Below, piece by piece: positions 49,932 to 64,000 of a stretch of 64,000 nt of DNA. Both the position numbers and the translations under genes were made by a program. Below the pieces are notes generated by a model. That model was given only the letters and a program-made list of their open reading frames with translations, did no database searches and was not told the DNA's origin. Each line of letters opens with the position of its first letter. Within the stretch, counting starts at the first letter, position 1. Origin of the DNA: Bdellovibrio reynosensis (GTDB lineage Bacteria; Bdellovibrionota; Bdellovibrionia; Bdellovibrionales; Bdellovibrionaceae); assembly GCF_022814725.1 (NCBI RefSeq), contig NZ_CP093442.1, positions 3,100,001-3,164,000 on the forward strand, in the 5' to 3' direction.

Positions 49932-50000
49932 CGAAATAAATTGACAAGAGTCGAGGCTCTAGCTTTAGGTCCAGTGATTATCTTCATTCGGGAGACTAGC

Positions 50001-50558
50001 ATGGTATTAAACAAAGCCGTTCGTTTTTTAATGTCTGTTGTATTGATCATTACAACGACCCAGACAGCTTTTGCGCAAGAGTCTGGACTTTTGTTGAGCG
50101 ACATTAAACCACCTCAGCAAGCTGCTGAATACATCTTTAGATCCTCACAAAAAGAATCGCTGATTGCGGTCCAACTTTTGGGCGCTGTTAATAAACCTGG
50201 GATCTACTATGTTCCTGCGAACACAGATTTGCTAAAGTTAATTACCTTAGCGGGCGGGACAACCAATGGGGGAGACCTTTCCGAGGTTTTGGTGCGTAAA
50301 CTAGAACCAAAAAGTTGGAGCGAAATTAAGTCCAAAGCGGTGAGCGAATATCAAGGGGCTTTTGAAGTGGATGCTGAAAAACTGATCAAATTTGGCGGCG
50401 CCCGCAGTTTAAAACTGCAACAGGATGATTTTATCTATGTCCCACCCAAAACTCCGTGGGTTAGTAACGAGGCGGCTCGCGGTATTACTATTGTTTCTGT
50501 CGTTTTGGGTATTGCTTTAACAGCCATCCTTATCGATAAAAATACGGACAATAAGTAA
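50001..50558 (+). CDS. SLBB-domain polysaccharide export protein
   Basis: Exported protein of 185 residues. ATG at 50001 has GGGAGA upstream; the longer frame is not signal-like. The signal peptide ends near TAFA. One SLBB domain (AVQLLGAVNKPGIYYVPANT, LKLITLAGGT) resembles the soluble-ligand-binding part of Wza/Wzx-type exporters. A C-terminal membrane segment (about 160-178, ITIVSVVLGIALTAILI) is present. It is far shorter than Wza and lacks the Poly_export domain. It is the first gene of a polysaccharide cluster, and its stop overlaps the next start (TAATG). Confidence 0.75.
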   Translation: MVLNKAVRFLMSVVLIITTTQTAFAQESGLLLSDIKPPQQAAEYIFRSSQKESLIAVQLLGAVNKPGIYYVPANTDLLKLITLAGGTTNGGDLSEVLVRKLEPKSWSEIKSKAVSEYQGAFEVDAEKLIKFGGARSLKLQQDDFIYVPPKTPWVSNEAARGITIVSVVLGIALTAILIDKNTDNK

Positions 50559-51838
50559 TGGTTAGGGCTAACGACGGACGCATTTTATTTCTAATAAAAG
50601 CTCTGGTAGCCCTGCTATTTATTTCTAAAATTTCTTTAGGCAGTATTCTGCCAATTCCTCGCAGCTTTTCTTATTTTATTTTTCAGCAGGGTCTTCATCC
50701 GTTCATGAATGTGCTGCTGTGCTTTTTGTTCGGTATGCCGCTGGTTTTTTTGTGGCTTCGAGTTCGAGGGCGGCATCACTTAAGTGGTTTTTATAAGCTC
50801 TTTATATTAGTGATGATGTCGACTTTGTTCGTACAAACATTTTTGCAGACTCAGTACGTGAATTCTGGCGAATCCATGATCATGCAGTTGGGGGCTTTGT
50901 TTTCGTCGCTGTTCATGATTGGTATTTATGGACTGATCATTCCAAGTCTTTGGGACGCTGAGGACTTCCTAAAGTTTGTACAGCGCTGGTCAGGAATTTT
51001 AGTTCTGATTTCATTGATTTTGTTTGTCGTGGCAGGCGGCCAAGTTTTTAAAGGCGGTCGCTTCGTAGGTATCTTTAAGCATATTCCACATATGGTGACT
51101 TGTGCGACGGTGGCTTTTGTTTTTTCTCTTGGTACTTTTTTGCAGGCACAGGAAGCGAAACATAAGATTTGGAACTTGGTGATATTGTTTGCTAGCTTCC
51201 TTGCCATAATTTTAACGGGAACTCGTTCATCAGCCGCAGCCGCTGTCATGGCCTTTGTGGTGACAATGATTCTGCATAAGACCCAAACAAATCAGGGGCG
51301 CATATTCAAGTTTGCTTTTATCTCTTTTGCGATCACTTTTACCACGTTCTTTGGCGCGCAAGCTTATGACTTCGCAAGAGGAGTAGCGACAGGGCAATCC
51401 GCCTTAGGCGGCCGTGAAGCACAGGATGGTATCGCTTCCCGATGGGAGGAAGTCGAACGCGGAAGCCAAATCTTTTTGCAGGAACCTTGGTTAGGTCATG
51501 GCCTGTTATCAAAGTTTGCTGCCGGTAACGATGTGGATGTTTCAAATTACAATGCAATGAAAGATCCCCATAATATCTTTATTTCCGCAGGTGTTGTTGG
51601 CGGCTGGCCATTGTTAGTGATCAGCGTGATTGGTGTGATCTTTATGTTGATTGGCGCTTTGAAGGCCGTGAAGTCCCACGACATTTCTAAACGCCAAATA
51701 GCAGTTTATCTTTTAGCGCATTTACCAATTCTTTTGATCTATCACATCCATCTTTCCATTGGTGGTATGGCGGATCGTCTTTATTGGTTGGTTATCGGCT
51801 TTGTAGCGGCATCAACAACTCGAACTGGGAAGTCATGA
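50558..51838 (+). CDS. O-antigen ligase/polymerase family membrane protein (Wzy/WaaL-like)
   Basis: Membrane protein of 426 residues with about 10-12 hydrophobic segments. The Wzy_C region includes LTGTRSSAAAAVMAF (the TGxR motif), and a large periplasmic loop contains WLGHGLLSKF and NAMKDPHNIFISAGVVGGWP, where the DPHN pattern matches ligase/polymerase active-site His. It probably joins repeat units of a surface polysaccharide. It starts one base inside the SLBB gene and overlaps the MFS gene by 4 bp. Confidence 0.85.
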   Translation: MVRANDGRILFLIKALVALLFISKISLGSILPIPRSFSYFIFQQGLHPFMNVLLCFLFGMPLVFLWLRVRGRHHLSGFYKLFILVMMSTLFVQTFLQTQYVNSGESMIMQLGALFSSLFMIGIYGLIIPSLWDAEDFLKFVQRWSGILVLISLILFVVAGGQVFKGGRFVGIFKHIPHMVTCATVAFVFSLGTFLQAQEAKHKIWNLVILFASFLAIILTGTRSSAAAAVMAFVVTMILHKTQTNQGRIFKFAFISFAITFTTFFGAQAYDFARGVATGQSALGGREAQDGIASRWEEVERGSQIFLQEPWLGHGLLSKFAAGNDVDVSNYNAMKDPHNIFISAGVVGGWPLLVISVIGVIFMLIGALKAVKSHDISKRQIAVYLLAHLPILLIYHIHLSIGGMADRLYWLVIGFVAASTTRTGKS

Positions 51839-53103
51839 AGGGTGTTGGATACGGTTTTGCAGAACTCGGCATTAACTGTATAGAGATCTTCGTTAGGATT
51901 CATCTTTTAGTTTTTTATACGGATTATGTGGGTCTGGATTCATCTTTGGCAGGCTTAGCCTTGGGCTTGGCTATTTTTTGGGATGCTATTTTAGATCCCA
52001 TCGTCGGCTATTTTTCAGACTGGTTCAGGGCAAAAAAAGCAGAGAGGTTTTCGTTCCTTCCATTTGGTTTTTTGTTTTTGGCATTTTGCATATGGGCCAT
52101 CTTAAATCCTCCGGAATTAAAAACACCCGCAGCTCAATTCGTTTATCTATTAGTGTTTGCTTTGTTATTGAATTCTGCCTACACAACCTTAAGTGTTCCT
52201 TATTCCGCTTTGGTTGGTGATCTTTCCCATGATTCTAAAGAACGCTCGCACTTAATTGGATGGCGTTTGGCTTTTGGCAATTTGGGGGCCATCTTTGGAA
52301 TCGCTATTCCCAGTTATTTTCTGATTCGCAAACAAATCAATCCCTATGGCTCAACAGCTTGGGTGATAATGGCGTTGTTGGCCTTGGGAACCTTTATTTC
52401 TTGGCAGACAGCGAAGAAATACAATCGGCCACCGACGGATAAAACTTCTGCGCGCAGGTTTTCCTTGGTTGCTCCGCTAAAGAACAAAGTATTTCTGCCG
52501 CTAGTCGCCGCTTACTTCATCGCTAACATGGGGCTTACTTTCAATTCTTCACTGGCACTTTATTTTTATCGGTTGCGGTTAAAGTTTGATGAAGAACAAA
52601 TTCAAACGGTGTTGCTTACTTTTCTGGTGGTGTTCACCGTTTCAATTCCTTTTTGGATCTACGCTGCTCGCTTTATTTCAAAGATTCATGCGTTGATGAT
52701 CGGGGCGGGGATGATGGGACTTTCTGCCGCTTTAATTTACCCGTTCTTACCTCCGCGGGAACTGACGTGGACGGTGTTATTCGCTTCGGTATTAGGTGGT
52801 GCGCTCGTGGGCTCTGTCGTGCTATTGGAGTCCTTGCTGACTGATATCGTGAAAGAAGAAGAGCAGCGTACTGGTAAGGATGAATTGGGTCTTTATTTTG
52901 GCGTATGGAAGATGATCGGCAAGATCTCTAGAGGTCTTGCCTTGGCTGTTACAGGGCAAATTTTAACGTGGTCCCGTGTTGATGATCTGTTGACTGCTAA
53001 TTTACGTCTGAACTTAGCTTTTGGTCCCTTAGTTGGCTGCTTTTTTATTGTTTCGGTTTTGATCCTCAAGAAGCTGTCAAATGCCCGCACAACTCTGAAG
53101 TAA
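51835..53103 (+). CDS. GPH-type MFS transporter
   Basis: Major-facilitator sugar:cation symporter family protein of 422 residues, 12 predicted membrane segments. ATG at 51835 gives the usual cytoplasmic start (MKGVGYGFAELGIN) and overlaps the preceding stop by 4 bp. The first-loop signature is AIFWDAILDPIVGYFSDWFR, typical of the MelB/GPH group (DPxxGxxSD). YTTLSVPYSALVGDLSHDSK matches the second conserved loop. In a polysaccharide operon it may move a sugar precursor or act as a flippase, but direction cannot be told. Confidence 0.85.
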   Translation: MKGVGYGFAELGINCIEIFVRIHLLVFYTDYVGLDSSLAGLALGLAIFWDAILDPIVGYFSDWFRAKKAERFSFLPFGFLFLAFCIWAILNPPELKTPAAQFVYLLVFALLLNSAYTTLSVPYSALVGDLSHDSKERSHLIGWRLAFGNLGAIFGIAIPSYFLIRKQINPYGSTAWVIMALLALGTFISWQTAKKYNRPPTDKTSARRFSLVAPLKNKVFLPLVAAYFIANMGLTFNSSLALYFYRLRLKFDEEQIQTVLLTFLVVFTVSIPFWIYAARFISKIHALMIGAGMMGLSAALIYPFLPPRELTWTVLFASVLGGALVGSVVLLESLLTDIVKEEEQRTGKDELGLYFGVWKMIGKISRGLALAVTGQILTWSRVDDLLTANLRLNLAFGPLVGCFFIVSVLILKKLSNARTTLK

Positions 53104-53205
53104 TTTCAAAGTCTTAATCCTCATTACAGATTAAACACAGGCCAAGCCCTTCTTTCAGTGGCACAACGAATGCTTGCAGGGGAAAATGACTTGGAAGGTG
53201 GAAAT

Positions 53206-54624
53206 ATGAGTGATCAGCATATTGAACCTGAATTAACAGTGGGTGAAATCATTAAGCTATACCTATCCCACTGGCGCATGTTTGCCTTTTTTACTGCAGG
53301 CTTATTTGCGATCAGCGTTCTTATATACGTATTAAAAGTTCCCTTTGTTGCATCGTCGACTATTGTCATCAACGATTCACAGAACTCGTCTATGCAGGCG
53401 TTTTCTAACCAATTCTTTGGTCTTTCCAAATCCGTCCAAGAATCTAAAAAGGGTAGCAGCCTTCTTTCAAAACACATTGAGTATTTGAAAACACGGGAGT
53501 TTTACGAAACTTTATTAACGCGTATTCAAGAACGTGGCAGCAGTCCACTTTTAACGATGGAAGAACGTAAGGGCTACGATGTTCTTCGCACCACCTACTT
53601 TAAAAACTTAGAAAAGCCTGAAAACAAAATCGCGTTATTGCAGCGCCTGGATTCATGGACTCGCATCCAACTGGATTCTGACTTCGAAATTCAAATCGAT
53701 GCAGTAACTCCGATTAAGGCCGTATCTTTATTCCTATCTAATACGATTTCTGAATTGGCAGCTCAGACCTTAAAAGCCCGCGAGTTGGGCGAGATCGCAA
53801 AAGTTGAAAACTTCATGGCGAAGCAAAAAGCTGATGCGGATGAAAAGCTTGCGACTTTCAGTAAACAACTTGCTGAGCTACAAAACAAAGATGAAAACTT
53901 ATTGCCGCTTTCTTCAAAAGAAAAAATGGGCGACTACGTAACGGAACTTTTAGTTCGCGCCAACGAAATCAAACTTAAGATCTCTGAAAATAAAAAAATG
54001 ATCGAGTATCTTGAACGTGGTCGTACTGGGCAAAGAGAAAGTGCGCTTTATGGTGTCGGCGGAAAAATCGAAGCGCTTAAAATCGAAAACAATCTTTTGC
54101 TGGGAAAATTGGGTCAGGTTCAAGGTTCTATTGATCGTTTGAAAAAAGAAGTGAAGGCTTTGCCGTTTGCCGCACAAATGGTGGAAGACCTTAAAAAGAA
54201 ATCCGAACTTGAATTCGCTCGTTATAAAGAGCTGACTACGAACCTAGCTAAACTTGAAGCACAAAAGATCTCTATCGATACTCGTTTTGAAGTTTTAGAA
54301 AGAGCCCGCTGGGAAAATACGTTGCCGCAAATTGGTTTGCTTAGCCTAGGACTTCTGTCGTTGCTGTTTAGCCAGGTGATTGGTTCTTTGATCATCTATT
54401 TTAAATACCTTTGGAATCCGCATGTGGTTACGGCACAAACATCGCGCAACTTGGTTATCTTTGATAATCATTCTGTCGATCCGCGAGTTATCATTGAAAA
54501 CTCTAAAATCAAATTCAGCTTAAAAAAACCTGAAGGTAAAAAAGAGGGTGAGCCTGGCGAAGAACAAGATAAAATCGCCTGGAATGTGCTGAATGTAGGT
54601 CAGGGTACAGATATCTCGCAATAG
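53206..54624 (+). CDS. Wzz-like chain-length determinant protein
   Basis: Polysaccharide co-polymerase of 472 residues. ATG at 53206 has GGTGG 4 nt upstream. N-terminal helix (about 24-44 from LSHWRMFAFFTAGLFAISVL) and C-terminal helix (about 383-403, IGLLSLGLLSLLFSQVIGSL) flank a long coiled-coil periplasmic domain with AQLQNKDENLLPLSS-like helices. The tail after the second membrane segment is cytoplasmic and lacks a tyrosine-kinase domain. It should set polymer length together with the Wzy-like protein. Confidence 0.83.
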   Translation: MSDQHIEPELTVGEIIKLYLSHWRMFAFFTAGLFAISVLIYVLKVPFVASSTIVINDSQNSSMQAFSNQFFGLSKSVQESKKGSSLLSKHIEYLKTREFYETLLTRIQERGSSPLLTMEERKGYDVLRTTYFKNLEKPENKIALLQRLDSWTRIQLDSDFEIQIDAVTPIKAVSLFLSNTISELAAQTLKARELGEIAKVENFMAKQKADADEKLATFSKQLAELQNKDENLLPLSSKEKMGDYVTELLVRANEIKLKISENKKMIEYLERGRTGQRESALYGVGGKIEALKIENNLLLGKLGQVQGSIDRLKKEVKALPFAAQMVEDLKKKSELEFARYKELTTNLAKLEAQKISIDTRFEVLERARWENTLPQIGLLSLGLLSLLFSQVIGSLIIYFKYLWNPHVVTAQTSRNLVIFDNHSVDPRVIIENSKIKFSLKKPEGKKEGEPGEEQDKIAWNVLNVGQGTDISQ

Positions 54625-57428: not shown

Positions 57429-58160
57429 ATGTTTTCTTTAAAATATGCCGCTTTATTCCTGATCTTTTTTTCCAATATTACTTGGGCAGCGACGACCTTA
57501 CCTAGGGGCTTAGACGATATAGACCGTATTCGCGCCTTACAGATTTTAGGCTTTGGCTCGGCTTCTAAGATTCTGAACAACCCTTATCCGCTAGGTGGGT
57601 ATTCGGGGATCGAAGTGGGACTTTCTTCGGAATTTATCCCCATCGAAGATTTGGCCCGCTTAGGTACCAAAACCACGGACCGTGGAGAACTTAACTACTA
57701 CACTCTGACTTTCGGTAAGGGCCTTTATTATAACGTTGATACTCATTTGTATTTCACTCCCTCTTTGCAGTCCGAAAAAGTTCAAGCCTTCGGGGGACAG
57801 CTTCGCTGGGGTTTTTATGAGGCTAAGTTTTTTCCTTTAAGTCTTACGGCCATTCTGTATACGGGTGGTGCGAACTTTTCTAACCTTATAAATATTTCGA
57901 CCATCGGGACGGATCTAGTGGCAACGGTATCCATGGACAACGTCGCTATATATTTTGGCGGTGGCAGGGTTCGAGCTATCGGAAAATTTATCGGTGGCGC
58001 TGATGGAATCACAGACGATGCACAGACCGTCGAACAAGACGAAACTGAAAATCACACGGTGTTCGGTGTAAGCTTTGATATCGCTCGTTTCTTTGTGGCA
58101 CTAGAGATTGATCGTTACTCAGATTCAATCTATTCCACCAAATTGGGCTTCCGTTTCTGA
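57429..58160 (+). CDS. Putative outer-membrane or periplasmic beta protein
   Basis: Exported protein of about 243 residues. The ATG at 57429 gives signal peptide MFSLKYAALFLIFFSNITWA; a TTG at 57408 is an alternative and neither has a clear SD. The rest alternates polar and hydrophobic residues and ends YSTKLGFRF with C-terminal Phe, as in outer-membrane barrels. Eight to ten strands would fit the length. No family recognised. It follows the 56331 gene by about 40 bp. Confidence 0.68.
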   Translation: MFSLKYAALFLIFFSNITWAATTLPRGLDDIDRIRALQILGFGSASKILNNPYPLGGYSGIEVGLSSEFIPIEDLARLGTKTTDRGELNYYTLTFGKGLYYNVDTHLYFTPSLQSEKVQAFGGQLRWGFYEAKFFPLSLTAILYTGGANFSNLINISTIGTDLVATVSMDNVAIYFGGGRVRAIGKFIGGADGITDDAQTVEQDETENHTVFGVSFDIARFFVALEIDRYSDSIYSTKLGFRF

Positions 58161-58184
58161 CAAACAAAAGATGATTGTTATATT
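58157..58184 (+). promoter_or_regulatory. Sigma-70-like promoter of the VTC operon
   Basis: CTGACA (58157-58162), 16-nt spacer, TATATT (58179-58184). It would give a leader of about 128 nt before the DUF4956 gene. It overlaps the stop codon of the preceding gene. Confidence 0.45.
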
Positions 58185-58318: not shown

Positions 58319-59002
58319 ATGTTGGACTTTTCTGTTCTAAATTCATCGTTTGCCAATCCAACGTGGATCTCTGTGATTTACGCGTTTTTACTAAGTTTCA
58401 TCTTAGGAACGGTATTGGCGATGCTTTACGTGAAGACGTTTCGGGGATTGTCTTATTCAATCAATTTTCTTCATGGCTTAGTTTTACTTCCCATTGTGAT
58501 TGCCATCGCGATGCAGGCCATTGGCGACAATGTGGCGCGCGGCATAGGTATGATTGGTGCGCTTTCGCTTCTTCGATTTAGAACCAACGTAAAAGATCCA
58601 AGGGACATGTTCTTTATCTTTGCTTCCTTAGCGGTGGGCCTTGCTAGCGGAGTGAACGCTTATGGTGTGGCTATTTTGGGAACAGCTTGTTTTGTTTTGG
58701 CTTTGCTTGTTCTAAACGGCTCTTCATTCGCATCGGGGCCTCAATTTGATGGACTTTTGCGCTTTAATCTAGAGCGGTCTCCGGATCATCAACGCGCGAT
58801 TGAATCTGTTTTAGAAAACAAATGCCGCCACTTTGCCTTAGCGACTATTCGTGAAATGGGACAGGGGGAGCGTTTGGATTTTTCGTACCAAGTCCGTTTG
58901 AAACCCCAGGCTAATTCCGCGCAGTTGATCGAAGAGCTTGGAAAAGTGCACACAGTTCGCGGTTTGAATTTCATGAACCAAGAATCAGTGATTGAGGTGT
59001 AA
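58319..59002 (+). CDS. DUF4956 membrane protein (VTC partner)
   Basis: Inner-membrane protein of 227 residues. About four membrane helices occupy residues 18-145. The DUF4956 signature GIGMIGALSLLRFRTNVKDP and FFIFASLAVGLASGVNAYG is clear. A soluble C-terminal domain of about 75 residues follows (RAIESVLENKCRHFALATI...). DUF4956 genes are typically found beside VTC-domain polymerase genes. Here it could be the membrane part through which the polymer is passed, which is inference. SD GGGAGG. It overlaps the region before the fusion gene. Confidence 0.87.
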   Translation: MLDFSVLNSSFANPTWISVIYAFLLSFILGTVLAMLYVKTFRGLSYSINFLHGLVLLPIVIAIAMQAIGDNVARGIGMIGALSLLRFRTNVKDPRDMFFIFASLAVGLASGVNAYGVAILGTACFVLALLVLNGSSFASGPQFDGLLRFNLERSPDHQRAIESVLENKCRHFALATIREMGQGERLDFSYQVRLKPQANSAQLIEELGKVHTVRGLNFMNQESVIEV

Positions 59003-59006
59003 AAAA

Positions 59007-60785
59007 ATGAAAACCCTCAAAAGCTTGATTCATTCTTTCTTTTTTGACGTCGTTGGTGCTGACAACAAGTTTTTATTTTTCTTTTGGAGTGGCGCCGTTA
59101 TTGCGGTCCTAAGCCTGGGCTTATATTTAGGCACAGAACCGGTCAGTATACTGGGGGTAGCCGAATCCCGGGAATATCAGGTGAACTTTAGCAATCCTGT
59201 GGAAATTAAAAGAGTTCACGTCCAACAAAACCAAGTTGTTAAAAAAGGCGATTTGCTAATTGAGCTCAGTCAGGCGGACCTTGATATGCAACTGCGGGTT
59301 TTAAAATCCCGCATGGACCGTTTATTAGCAGAATATAAACTGCGCCAAGAAATTTCCTTACTGACAAAAGATGTGACCCGTTTGCCGGCGGGTTCGGACC
59401 CCTTGCAAGTCGACATCATCGATACGAAACGAGAAATTGAAGTTATTGAGCGGCGCATGCGCAATCTTTTTGTTTTTGCTGAGGTTGAAGGATCCGTCGG
59501 TACTGTGAATTTTAAAGATGGCGAAAAGGCCCCTTCCTTTGCCACGCTGTTGACCTTAGTTCCATTGAATCCAAGCTATGTGAACGGTTATGTGAATGAA
59601 AACCTGCAATCTATGGTAGAAGTTGGGCAAACGGTTAATGTGTATTCAAGTTCGGGCCTGACAGTTCAAGGCAAGGTCACTAGCGTAGGTGCTCGCATCG
59701 TTCCCATCCCAGAGCGGTTGTTGCGTATTCAGACTTTGCCTGCTTGGGGTCGTGAAGTCGTCGTTAAGATTCCAGATGAAAATAAGTTTCTTTTAGGTGA
59801 AAAAGTCACTGTTCGTAAATCTTGGGGAATTTCTTTATTTAGTACCGCCCAAGCTGAAGCTGATACCGGGATCGAGATTCAGCATAAACCAGTTCAAGAT
59901 ATTACTTTTCCGCCAAGTGTTCGTGAAGAATTCATTCCAGAAATTTCGGGGGTTGCTTATCTGCCAGAAATTCATCAGTTTGCACTGGTATCTGATGATT
60001 ACCCGGGGGATGTGCCACATCTGTTGTTAATGAACTCCCGCGGGGAAGTGACGGAACAAATGTTGCCAATCTTGAACTTGGATAAAATGGAGGACATTGA
60101 ATCTATTTCTCAACAAGGTTCTGATATTTACCTTCTTTCAAGTCTTTCAGGGACTAAGAAAAATAAACTGAAGAAAACCAGACAACTTTTTGTGAAGGTT
60201 CAACGAAGTGGTTTGACGTTCACAGCCGAAAGAAAAATCGATCTGCGCTTGGCCCTTTTGGAAGCGTCGAAGAAATCAAAAGATGTTGTTCTAAATAAAC
60301 TTTACGCCGCTGCCCAAGGGACCCAAGAAAGCGATCTAGAGGTAGAAGGCCATGCGGTAAAAGGCAATGAGCTGTTCTTGTTGTTGAAACGCCCCCAATT
60401 TTCGAATAACGAAGGTGTGATTCTAAAGATCAAAAATCTTGAAGACCTTTTAGAGACGGGAAAGATTGCTAACGGCGATCTTTCTGTGGCGGTTCAGTTT
60501 ACCGCATCGGCGGGAACTGATCATAGCGGTGCGTACCACTCTGACATGATCTTTGCTGAAGATACCATTTTTATTTCAAGTTCTTGCCGCGAAGAAAAGT
60601 GCAGTGCCATCTGGAGGTTAAAGCCGGGTGAAACAAAAGCAGAACTGGTTGAAGAATTTAAAACCAAAGGTCTTGAAGGTCTGACGATTTATCCGCCGAC
60701 GGGGGAGCTTTTTGGTGTGTTTGATCAAAAAAAGGGAAGCAAATTTATTTCCCTAGCGATGCCGGATTCTTTGAGGGTGGAATGA
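59007..60785 (+). CDS. HlyD-type membrane fusion protein fused to a phytase-like propeller domain
   Basis: Protein of 592 residues starting at ATG 59007 with GAGGTG upstream. One membrane helix lies around 25-45. The adaptor part has a lipoyl half-motif VEIKRVHVQQNQVVKKGDLL, a short coiled-coil hairpin (SRMDRLLAEYKLRQE) and a barrel with YVNGYVNENLQSMVEVGQTV. From about residue 305 a second domain resembles SdiA-regulated/esterase-like propellers: ISGVAYLPEIHQFALVSDD, EDIESISQQGSDIYLLSS and GLEGLTIYPPTGELFGVFD. Such a fusion is unusual for adaptors. Four-base overlap with the next gene. Confidence 0.75.
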   Translation: MKTLKSLIHSFFFDVVGADNKFLFFFWSGAVIAVLSLGLYLGTEPVSILGVAESREYQVNFSNPVEIKRVHVQQNQVVKKGDLLIELSQADLDMQLRVLKSRMDRLLAEYKLRQEISLLTKDVTRLPAGSDPLQVDIIDTKREIEVIERRMRNLFVFAEVEGSVGTVNFKDGEKAPSFATLLTLVPLNPSYVNGYVNENLQSMVEVGQTVNVYSSSGLTVQGKVTSVGARIVPIPERLLRIQTLPAWGREVVVKIPDENKFLLGEKVTVRKSWGISLFSTAQAEADTGIEIQHKPVQDITFPPSVREEFIPEISGVAYLPEIHQFALVSDDYPGDVPHLLLMNSRGEVTEQMLPILNLDKMEDIESISQQGSDIYLLSSLSGTKKNKLKKTRQLFVKVQRSGLTFTAERKIDLRLALLEASKKSKDVVLNKLYAAAQGTQESDLEVEGHAVKGNELFLLLKRPQFSNNEGVILKIKNLEDLLETGKIANGDLSVAVQFTASAGTDHSGAYHSDMIFAEDTIFISSSCREEKCSAIWRLKPGETKAELVEEFKTKGLEGLTIYPPTGELFGVFDQKKGSKFISLAMPDSLRVE

Positions 60786-61936
60786 GTTTTTTGTGCTTGA
60801 TCCTTTTTTGCGCCTCTGTGGCTGAAGCAGTCACTCCTGACCAAGTATTAAAATCTGCTTGGACAGAAAAAACCTATATGGCTTTAGATGAGGTGCAATC
60901 AACGAGCTCTAAAAACCCGTTTAAAGCGGTGGAAGTTTCTTTTACAGATGAACGGGAAGATTCTAAAAGCTCTTTTGAAACGGAAGTGAAGTTTCAGTTT
61001 AAATCCTACCCTGAATGGAAAATCGGCAACGGCCATGAAAATCAAAAGAACTTATTAAAGGCTTCAAGTCTTGGTTGGGCCTTGAAGAATCGTTACAGTG
61101 TGATTTTGCAGTATGAACTGAATCGCCGGAAATTAGAGAGGGTCGCAGAGGCGCTGCGATTATCCGATGGCTACCTTAAAGCTCAGAACCTTTCTTTACG
61201 CGCAGGCAAAGCGACGTCTAAAAACTATCTTAGCGCCCAAAATGAGCTTTATAAATTGAAACGCTATCAAAGCGGATTGCAGCAGGAACAGAGTCAGCTA
61301 GAGAAAAAACTTAAAACCTGGGTGAAGGAAACTGATTCTTCCGGACTGACCTCTTATAACTTAGTGAGCGTTGAAGAGATTGGCCAAGTGTTACAAACCA
61401 ATCCCACGGAATCAGAATCCTTATCTAAAAAGCTGTCAGACCAAGAAATTAAGTTGATGAGCGAAGAGCTTGCCATCGTCAAGGGCCGCGAACGGCAGTG
61501 GGTGAAAAGTTTTGACGTCGCCCATGTAAGCAAAGACGAAGAAGATCAGTATAAAATTGGTGTGACTTTTCAAATTCCAACCCTGGGCCACGACGTTTTA
61601 GCGAAACAAAAGCAAAACGATCTGCTTTTAAAGCGCGCTTTAAAACAGAAAGAAGCGGAAGAAGCAGGCGATCAGCTGCAAAATCTGAAGGTGCAGATCT
61701 TAAACTTGATTGAGCTTTATAAAAACGAAAGCAAATTATCCGAGCTGAAGGTGGGGAGTTTAGACCCCCTTGCTAACATCGAACGAAAAATCGCGATGGA
61801 ACAAGAGCAAATTGATCTTTTGAATAAGCATCAAGAAATCTGTTATCTCTATTTAGACTATCTATTGGAAAGCGAACTTTTAGTTAAAAATCCTGAAAAG
61901 AATTATTTAGAAAAATCACTGCAGGCGGCTTTATGA
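60782..61936 (+). CDS. TolC-like outer membrane factor
   Basis: Protein of 384 residues with a signal peptide (MSFLCLILFCASVAEA). The rest is mostly long helices with heptad-like charged patterns typical of TolC/OMF repeats: RRKLERVAEALRLSDGYLKA, SLRAGKATSKNYLSAQNELY and KQKQNDLLLKRALKQKEAEE. A beta-strand pair is expected at KIGVTFQIPTLGHDVLAKQK. The sequence is short compared with TolC (about 470), so it is a divergent OMF. It overlaps both neighbours by 4 bp, so the operon is translationally coupled. Confidence 0.7.
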   Translation: MSFLCLILFCASVAEAVTPDQVLKSAWTEKTYMALDEVQSTSSKNPFKAVEVSFTDEREDSKSSFETEVKFQFKSYPEWKIGNGHENQKNLLKASSLGWALKNRYSVILQYELNRRKLERVAEALRLSDGYLKAQNLSLRAGKATSKNYLSAQNELYKLKRYQSGLQQEQSQLEKKLKTWVKETDSSGLTSYNLVSVEEIGQVLQTNPTESESLSKKLSDQEIKLMSEELAIVKGRERQWVKSFDVAHVSKDEEDQYKIGVTFQIPTLGHDVLAKQKQNDLLLKRALKQKEAEEAGDQLQNLKVQILNLIELYKNESKLSELKVGSLDPLANIERKIAMEQEQIDLLNKHQEICYLYLDYLLESELLVKNPEKNYLEKSLQAAL

Positions 61937-62718
61937 GCATTCAAGTTTCGCCGTTAAATCTTGAAAGATACGAACTGAAGTATTTGATTTCTCCGGATAT
62001 GGTCGAGCCGATTTCAAAATACGTCGAAGCCTACTGTAAAATGGATTATTTTTCTGAGATCGCGCCGGATAAGTGCTACAAAATCAATAGTCTTTATTTA
62101 GATTCACCGTCGCTTTATATTTTACGTTCTAAGGAAACCGCGGAAGCCTTTCATTTTAATATGCGGGTTCGTTCCTATGGAGAAGGTCTAAAGCCGCCTT
62201 ATTTTTTTGAAATTAAATACAAGCTGCGCGAGTTCGTGCGTAAAAAGAGGGCTAAGGTCACGTGTGAAAACTGGCAAGACATTTTGGAGTATGGACTTAT
62301 TCCTGAAAATCTAGAGGGAATGTCCGTCGACAACCTGGAAGAGTTTTTGTTTATGAAAATGACCTACAACGTGGGGCCCGTTATTTTAACTCAGTATAAG
62401 CGTAAGGCCTATTTGTCAGAGGTGGATGATTATGCCCGGGTGACGTTTGATATGTCTTTAAGATACCAGGAAATGTTTGAATGGAACGTGAAACCCGATG
62501 ATAAGATGATGTGCAACTACGACCATCCTGATATCTTTGAAGAGCCTGGGAAAAATGTGGTTTTAGAGTTGAAATGCGAAAAGAAAATTCCATACTGGAT
62601 CGTGGACTTAATTAGGAAGTTTCAATTGCAGCGGGGGTCCTTTTCTAAGTTTGGGAACTCTATGCTGACTCACTATACGATTCCGGAGGTTATGGCCGCC
62701 GGGACTTTGTATAGATAA
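61933..62718 (+). CDS. VTC-domain polyphosphate polymerase family protein
   Basis: Cytoplasmic enzyme-like protein of 261 residues forming the VTC tunnel fold (about 230 residues). Conserved basic and acidic residues for nucleotide and metal are visible: ERYELKYLI at the start, INSLYLDSPS, NMRVRSYGEG, YFFEIKYKLREFVRKKRAKV, ILTQYKRKAYLS, TFDMSLRYQ, and VLELKCEKKIPYWI. In yeast Vtc4 this domain makes polyphosphate from ATP and moves it across a membrane. No SPX domain is attached. It is the last gene of the operon, overlapping the TolC-like gene by 4 bp, followed by a terminator. Confidence 0.87.
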   Translation: MSIQVSPLNLERYELKYLISPDMVEPISKYVEAYCKMDYFSEIAPDKCYKINSLYLDSPSLYILRSKETAEAFHFNMRVRSYGEGLKPPYFFEIKYKLREFVRKKRAKVTCENWQDILEYGLIPENLEGMSVDNLEEFLFMKMTYNVGPVILTQYKRKAYLSEVDDYARVTFDMSLRYQEMFEWNVKPDDKMMCNYDHPDIFEEPGKNVVLELKCEKKIPYWIVDLIRKFQLQRGSFSKFGNSMLTHYTIPEVMAAGTLYR

Positions 62719-62748
62719 AAAGGGAGCTTGAAAGCTCCCTTTTTTCGT
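62717..62748. terminator. Bidirectional intrinsic terminator
   Basis: GGGAGCTT-GA-AAGCTCCC with A-run before and T-run after lies between the VTC gene and the convergent gene. Confidence 0.9.
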
Positions 62749-62749
62749 T

Positions 62750-64000
62750 TTAACAGCTTGGTGCTGGGGCCGCCGCACCTGGTACGTAAAGTTCAAGGTC
62801 GACATCAAAGCGCAATTGATTGGCCTGACACTTTGTTTTCAGGATCTGTTTTGCTTCCGCTGCATTTCTTTGCAGATGTCTAAATTCTGACGGTGAAAAC
62901 AAAAGCTCTTTAACAAAATAGTCTTGTCCCGCAGGGGTTGAAAGAGCTTGTTCAAAAGCCATAAACTTTTTGTAGGTGTGGAAGCTCATATGGCGAATTT
63001 GCTCTAAAACTTTATATTTTTTCATCATATTGGTTTTAGTAACACCGCAGTCGTTATCTTTAAGTAGCATTTCTTTTACTAGCGCTGCTTTCTTGCCGGC
63101 CATGGCTGATGTTTCTTGTTCAGGAACCTGAATCACATCGTTCACCCATTTAGCGTCTGATTTTTGTCTTACAACTTTTTTTGCAACGGGATCGATGTAA
63201 TACCAGAAGAACTTATAGTGGATATTTCCGATACGGTCTTGCTGGTTTAAAAGTGTATCCATCAAAATCATGTCAGAAACGTCTTTCAGTTGCAGAGCTG
63301 TTTGCGCCACTTGGGCAAAATCAGTCGTCCCAACCATTTGGCTTACGGATGCGGAGCTAATAAGACGTTTAAAAGGATCTTGATTCATAAAGCGCTCGTA
63401 ACGAGTGTCGTACTTTCCGACACCACTTACATCCACATACTGTTCTTCATTTTTAGGATTGTCGCTTAAGGCTCCATAGAACTGGGTCGCTTGCGCATCA
63501 ACTACGGCTGGAAAGAAGCGGGGGCTTTGGTGTACTTCTAAAACTTTTTCCCACGAAGCTAAGATGGGATTGTTGGTGCCTTGTAAAGTATTGATGGCTT
63601 TATCAGTCAGTCTTTTATGAATAGTGATATCCATGGTTCTGATAACTGCTGGGGGAACCCGCCCGGCATTTCCAAATATTCTTGAAAGATGATAATAGGC
63701 AAGAATCGCAGGAGTGTAAGAGCAAGTGATACTTTGCTTAAACTTCGCTTCTGTTTTCACGCCCATTTTTTTGACATCGCAATTAGAGGCATCAATCTGC
63801 TGTTTCGTGTATTGGGCATTGGGTTCAAGCAAAAGAATAGCAGGATTCGTCGAGTTGTATTTAGGACAAACACCCATGTTGGTATAGAAATCATAACCAC
63901 ATAAGGTGCCTTCTTTTTTTTGATCTTCAGTTCTGTAGTCTGCTCCTGGCCATTTTTTTCCGATCACGCATAATTCTGTTAAATTGCGCGGTGATTTAAA
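62750..64000 (-). CDS. Unknown protein, possible atypical kinase fold (5' end outside the window)
   Basis: The frame stays open to the right edge of the window, so the gene is partial: at least 416 residues are seen and the start lies beyond 64000. GTG at 63967 lacks an SD and is not favoured. No family is certain. The segment MDTLLNQQDRIGN followed by IHYKFFWYYID resembles the catalytic loop of HipA/PI3K/Fam20-type kinases (DRxxN), and LLKDNDCG could be the later metal-binding Asp. About seven Cys are present, including the final residue. It lies directly after the VTC operon but on the opposite strand. Confidence 0.5.
   Translation of the reverse strand, partial: FKSPRNLTELCVIGKKWPGADYRTEDQKKEGTLCGYDFYTNMGVCPKYNSTNPAILLLEPNAQYTKQQIDASNCDVKKMGVKTEAKFKQSITCSYTPAILAYYHLSRIFGNAGRVPPAVIRTMDITIHKRLTDKAINTLQGTNNPILASWEKVLEVHQSPRFFPAVVDAQATQFYGALSDNPKNEEQYVDVSGVGKYDTRYERFMNQDPFKRLISSASVSQMVGTTDFAQVAQTALQLKDVSDMILMDTLLNQQDRIGNIHYKFFWYYIDPVAKKVVRQKSDAKWVNDVIQVPEQETSAMAGKKAALVKEMLLKDNDCGVTKTNMMKKYKVLEQIRHMSFHTYKKFMAFEQALSTPAGQDYFVKELLFSPSEFRHLQRNAAEAKQILKTKCQANQLRFDVDLELYVPGAAAPAPSC

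Follow-up and report, generated by a model that had tools for sequence, protein, structure and literature searches.

The window analysed here, a stretch of 64,000 nucleotides (3100001-3164000) from the closed 3.58 Mb genome of Bdellovibrio reynosensis, contains at 58319-62718 a four-gene operon encoding a DUF4956 membrane protein, a HlyD-type adaptor, a TolC-type channel and a VTC-domain protein, which we read, with a probability of about 0.48, as an envelope-spanning conduit that exports VTC-made polyphosphate by way of DUF4956, the adaptor and the TolC-type channel. The architecture and the conservation of the operon are strongly supported, and the export of polyphosphate from the cell is plausible, at about even odds. 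If true, this would add to the known means by which bacteria release a polyphosphate-like polymer one that has not been described before. In this regard, we know of no dedicated bacterial route by which polyphosphate reaches the cell surface, and a literature search found none. Were a polymerase and a dedicated envelope-spanning conduit encoded together, how polyphosphate reaches the surface would become a directly testable question in laboratory Bdellovibrio.

The four genes lie on one strand (Table 1) with junctions spanning -4 to +4 bp. Both the adaptor/channel and the channel/VTC junctions are ATGA overlaps of 4 bp, just as the original prediction had it, and the open reading frames, the tight junctions and the conservation described below bear out its view of the four genes as a single unit. 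The adaptor frame offers two starts, of which ATG 59007, lying 4 nt 3' of the DUF4956 stop and behind GAGGTG, is probably the one used, TTG 58992 being less likely. A gap of 158 bp precedes DUF4956, and a terminator-like stem sits directly after the last operon gene, where the VTC and kinase genes converge. On the evidence of the reading frames and Pfam profiles, there is no ABC, RND or MFS pump within the four-gene unit.

Table 1. Coordinates of the operon, its putative signals and the convergent neighbour, in window positions unless marked
Feature	Position	Strand	Remarks
Promoter-like site	58157-58184	+	10/12, with extended -10, within the gap of 158 bp; no better than chance in this region
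DUF4956 ORF	58319-59002	+	227 aa inner-membrane protein
Adaptor ORF, longest reading from TTG 58992	58992-60785	+	
Adaptor, probable start ATG 59007	59007-60785	+	HlyD-type periplasmic adaptor fused to phytase-like/DUF3616-related domain
C-terminal domain of adaptor	59853-60785	+	Pfam matches of relatives; family alignment
TolC-type outer-membrane factor ORF	60782-61936	+	384 aa, signal peptide
VTC-domain ORF	61933-62718	+	261 aa
Terminator-like hairpin	62717-62744	+	12 pairs, T-rich both sides; consensus match only
Predicted secreted Fam20-like kinase	62750-64000	-	450 aa; start beyond window (L002:7750-9102)

Upstream in the window (49941-54624) lie genes for an SLBB (Wza-like) protein, a Wzy_C protein and a third protein that weakly matches Wzz, a block that resembles an exopolysaccharide locus and whose synteny with the operon holds for only part of the genus. 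Membership of the operon in this block was considered and rejected, several Bdellovibrio genomes (L058-L065) placing the operon elsewhere. A further long stretch, L002:13923-14867, is of low complexity, with overlapping Phe/Leu/Ser/Pro-rich reading frames in all three minus frames, and is likely a simple repeat, not genes.

The VTC-domain identity holds, with a match to PF09359 at 1.2e-45 (156 bits against a cut-off of 23), an alignment to yeast Vtc4 at 4.6e-20 and an intact set of Vtc4 active-site residues. The protein consists of the VTC domain alone, having no transmembrane segment, signal peptide or SPX domain, and its gene is the only VTC gene in the genome. K200, R264, R266, K281, R361, E426, K428, S457 and K458 of Vtc4 are all kept, and K200, K281, R361 and K458 (also K428 and S457) are what we take to be tunnel or active-site residues of the yeast enzyme. 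In the window protein, K200, R264, R266, K281, R361, E426 and K458 become K16, R78, R80, K95, R157, E212 and K239, which are invariant across 18 bacterial VTC proteins. R264, R266 and E426 are the residues that were jointly mutated in the VTC complex whose structure was solved, and it is in yeast VTC that polyphosphate synthesis is coupled to membrane translocation (PMC9911596). Judged by these residues, the window protein would be a polyphosphate polymerase with the Vtc4 active site. The genome also encodes PPK1, PPK2 not having been found in it, and with PPK1 present a second polymerase for cytoplasmic storage is unnecessary, which fits a role in the envelope. The coupling of this second polymerase to a channel points to a task specific to one compartment.

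The third protein has no Pfam match over cut-off and no PDB match by profile, and in 4 of 15 of its relatives OEP appears at sub-threshold level (best E 0.002). Since sequence alone thus failed to prove its TolC-like identity, structure prediction was needed. The AF2 model (pLDDT 81.6) contains two helix/beta-hairpin repeats, as in the TolC protomer, and in a Foldseek search against the PDB its best 43 matches are all outer-membrane factors, with the top TolC model at 2.9e-12. At the level of the predicted fold, the protein is confirmed as a TolC-fold outer-membrane factor, and the TolC-like assignment originally made is upheld. In divergent members of the phylum, where profile matches are weak, the channel gene was recognised partly by position and size.

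The adaptor matches PF16576 (HlyD_D23) at 2.2e-7 and also PF13437, both over the Pfam cut-off, and hydropathy places an N-terminal membrane anchor at residues 23-41. Its C-terminal domain, in which acidic residues are conserved across the family alignment, gave no useful match in a profile search of solved structures. The putative phytase-like/DUF3616 label comes from Pfam matches of relatives, namely to DUF3616 (1.3e-8), Phytase-like PF13449 (1.3e-6) and DUF6929 (4.4e-5). The domain is separable, and stands as an add-on outside the core of the operon, because it is missing in L195-L198 and free-standing in L200-L206. These stand-alone relatives occur in Bdellovibrionota with no operon nearby.

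The DUF4956 protein, the most conserved of the operon (78-89% identity in most Bdellovibrio), matches PF16316 over the Pfam cut-off (E 4.2e-15). Hydropathy indicates about four transmembrane segments within residues 17-132, with peaks at 17-35, 50-68, 97-115 and 114-132, and a basic stretch, R86-F-R88...K92, is conserved. The NCBIfam MgtC/SapB model covers residues 67-217, and the MgtC Pfam match, at 2.7e-5, falls below cut-off. MgtC, the nearest named relative, has to our knowledge no agreed channel function. By analogy with a related Streptococcus protein, which combines an MgtC membrane domain with an ACT domain (PMC12345266), the C-terminal region of DUF4956 may be ACT-like.

Searching 40 genomes with the adaptor shows it to be present in most members of the genus, where VTC adjoins it. 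Fourteen other Bdellovibrio genomes have the same four-gene order, the gaps ranging from -11 to +3 when the most upstream start is taken; a fifteenth Bdellovibrio locus (L057) is cut by a contig end, and a locus in Bdellovibrionaceae (L072) carries the same operon. In about half of the 14 genomes the flanking genes are unlike those of the window, and because they differ while the unit stays, the operon appears to be kept for its own sake. A search of 291 genomes finds the adaptor family in further families of the phylum, and VTC adjoins the DUF4956-adaptor pair in all 28 Bdellovibrionota loci that are not cut by a contig end. The combination of DUF4956 and VTC with HlyD and TolC families, first noticed in the window, is therefore not confined to it but recurs phylum-wide, and a chance or local arrangement is rejected. 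In family f18, as well as in one f4 genome, proteins of about 1100-1200 aa with signal-peptide-like starts are encoded beside the operon, standing after VTC in L189, L190 and L192 and before DUF4956 in L191, L193, L194 and L195; four members were scanned and gave no Pfam match.

A second phylum carries the transport genes in another setting. Two Saprospiraceae loci, found by DUF4956 similarity, contain DUF4956, adaptor and channel and no VTC, and each of these genomes has a single VTC gene elsewhere, which in L239 is accompanied by its own DUF4956 and by CotH. The adaptor is present in 19 of the 199 genomes of the same order, and DUF4956, adaptor and channel follow one another in nearly all of 16 further Bacteroidota loci. 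Across the 18 Bacteroidota loci VTC never stands beside the unit, and in 13 of the 18 genomes, which are drafts, no VTC was found anywhere. The transport unit can thus work without a VTC product, and a different or broader cargo is conceivable. None of the DUF4956-adaptor-channel units in other Bdellovibrionota or in Bacteroidota includes an ABC, RND or MFS pump. At the Saprospiraceae VTC locus, a protein with a CYTH domain (4.1e-6), whose start resembles a signal peptide, is encoded between CotH and DUF4956 (L239:10130-11005, minus strand), and is possibly an extracytoplasmic tunnel enzyme.

A wider sample of 80 loci from many phyla, chosen by DUF4956 similarity and scanned without filtering, has VTC no further than 6 kb from DUF4956 in 75 loci, in keeping with the earlier statement that DUF4956 is the usual partner of VTC, and a CotH kinase in 26. 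These surveys bear on an account of the operon in which the DUF4956-adaptor-channel unit exports some other cargo, be it an ion, a phosphorylated metabolite or a nucleotide, and VTC, as a cytoplasmic partner, regulates or supplies it in some lineages only. VTC-less operons common in Bacteroidota, and the MgtC-like sequence of DUF4956, would be expected of such an exporter; the presence of VTC, with its active site intact, in every uncut Bdellovibrionota locus, and its partnership with DUF4956 in most phyla, would not, and we regard this account as possible but rather doubtful.

To address the relationship of DUF4956 to the adaptor and channel, 101 DUF4956 proteins, 34 of them adaptor-linked, were placed in a maximum-likelihood tree. 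All 34, Bacteroidota included, form one clade with support 100/99, and when the adaptor-link labels are shuffled on the tree 28.6 changes are needed on average. As far as this tree of sequences goes, adaptor-linked DUF4956 is of one origin across two phyla. Because DUF4956, adaptor and channel stay together in two phyla, even without VTC, DUF4956 is likely to be the inner-membrane partner of the other two, and is the best candidate for that position; the single-origin clade, which marks it as forming a unit with adaptor and channel, is the best evidence for this partnership, and likewise the best evidence that the cargo of the unit extends beyond what VTC makes. It might be supposed instead that the adaptor and TolC-like protein work with a pump whose gene lies elsewhere, and that VTC and DUF4956 are a separate polyphosphate or regulatory pair, placed in the operon by coincidence. 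TolC-type channels are indeed often shared, and these genomes do encode further HlyD proteins, but the gene order persists in another phylum, among different neighbours and with no pump gene, and one clade is what co-adapted partners would give, such that a distant pump appears improbable. Of the envelope-spanning machine first predicted, one part stands, a single pump-less unit with DUF4956 as the best candidate for the inner-membrane place; the Bacteroidota genomes without VTC speak against dedication of that unit to polyphosphate.

In the mechanism that we favour, the export of VTC-made polyphosphate, VTC would polymerise phosphate from ATP on the cytoplasmic face, and DUF4956, filling the place of an ABC or RND pump in the inner membrane, would take up the growing chain. 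The HlyD-type adaptor would bridge the periplasm and the TolC-type protein would cross the outer membrane, such that the polymer, or phosphate cut off from it by the phytase-like domain, would reach the periplasm or the surface. As in yeast VTC, the driving force for translocation would come from polymer synthesis, and the phytase-like domain, if its family name is any guide, may act in the periplasm by trimming or hydrolysing the product. Complex formation, the polyphosphate product, its export, the direction of that export and the role of the phytase-like domain are features that we infer.

Convergent with VTC is a gene for what is predicted to be a secreted kinase of the Fam20 fold, with a signal peptide and conserved cysteines. 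Its AF2 model (pLDDT 91.6, pTM 0.89) aligns with Fam20C at Z 17.7 over 279 residues (rmsd 4.1), 5yh0 being the best of 987 chains, and Foldseek gives Fam20C at 5.4e-7; the value for CotH, Z 10.3, is below that for Fam20C. The family has the invariant residues D289-R290, N293 and D349-N350-D351, of which D289, N293, D349 and D351 would fit as candidate catalytic and metal-binding residues. In 12 of the loci examined across the phylum a homologue lies near the operon, nearly always directly convergent with VTC; in L064 a diverged copy immediately precedes DUF4956, in the same orientation. The kinase is present in 15 of 15 Bdellovibrio genomes with the operon and in none of six without it (p 2e-5), and, among 291 genomes, in 26 of the 32 that carry the adaptor against 18 of the 259 that lack it (p 7e-20, a value that ignores relatedness); it is not exclusive to the operon because paralogues occur elsewhere in these genomes. 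CotH was not found near the operon in any of 31 Bdellovibrionota loci. Profile comparison gave no sequence link between the Fam20-like family and CotH (hhalign probability 0.1), nor with the f18 proteins of about 1100 aa, for which no kinase identity is proposed, and any kinship there is thus by fold only. Both the kinase neighbour and the phytase-like identity of the fused domain go beyond the earlier reading, which was of the sequence only. Past the end of the window, the kinase is followed by a conserved lipoprotein-like gene (L002:9312-10112, plus strand) with the cysteine-phosphatase-like motif HCWNGWHSSG and weak tyrosine-phosphatase matches (Y_phosphatase2 best, at 0.0063); the two genes may possibly form a kinase/phosphatase pair.

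Secreted kinases also accompany the module elsewhere. Sets of CotH, polyphosphate polymerase and DUF4956 at Pel loci have already been published (PMC7112168), and the 80-locus scan places the set outside such loci as well, contradicting a remark in PMC12345266 on its three genes. Three of the VTC-less Bacteroidota operons have CotH kinases within or beside the unit. The recurrence of a secreted kinase suggests that export of polymer or phosphate is linked to phosphorylation outside the cytoplasm, for which the phosphate donor is a problem. VTC might be a tunnel enzyme that phosphorylates another polymer or a protein and acts with the secreted Fam20/CotH-type kinases on surface material, making no free polyphosphate. 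Such a role would draw on the diverse substrates of TTM enzymes, as given in PMC4641920, and on the kinases near the module, CotH in the wider sample and Fam20-like in Bdellovibrio; the compared residues, however, are those of the polyphosphate polymerase Vtc4, and a protein with neither signal peptide nor transmembrane segment would have no direct contact with a secreted kinase, which leaves this role very unlikely. Since secreted kinases otherwise have no ATP outside the cytoplasm, DUF4956 could also carry polyphosphate, or another energy-rich phosphate where VTC is missing, out to fuel the Fam20/CotH-type kinases, in double-membrane cells via the adaptor and the TolC-type channel, a proposal that we hold to be a long shot.

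Compared with known systems, the operon combines familiar parts in a new way. With the eukaryotic VTC complex (Vtc1/Vtc3/Vtc4) it shares a TTM polymerase with the same active-site residues and a membrane subunit as partner, and the cytosolic placement of the polymerase, with the synthesis-translocation coupling of yeast (PMC9911596), is the arrangement proposed for the operon; it differs in that its VTC protein has no SPX domain, its membrane partner is DUF4956, for which no link to Vtc1 was found, and its product faces two membranes, hence the adaptor and TolC-type channel. The CotH/polyphosphate polymerase/DUF4956 module of Gram-positive Pel loci likewise has VTC beside DUF4956 and a secreted kinase nearby (PMC7112168, PMC12345266), whereas the operon is without Pel genes, adds an adaptor, a phytase-like domain and an outer-membrane channel, and neighbours a kinase that is Fam20-like by fold, not CotH by sequence. 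That neighbour resembles Fam20C kinases in fold, signal peptide, cysteines and the DR...N and DND residues, but is bacterial and 13-17% identical, its kinase activity being a prediction only. Tripartite efflux and type I secretion systems (HlyD/TolC, AcrA/TolC, MacA/TolC) also join a HlyD-type adaptor to a TolC-fold outer-membrane factor in one operon. We found no description in the literature of adaptor or TolC-type genes with DUF4956, and the role of DUF4956 as the inner-membrane partner of a tripartite exporter would be new. If DUF4956 does partner a TolC system, it would constitute a further inner-membrane class beside the ABC, RND and MFS pumps; in the operon it is DUF4956 that would hold the inner-membrane place which, in the tripartite systems, belongs to one of these pumps.
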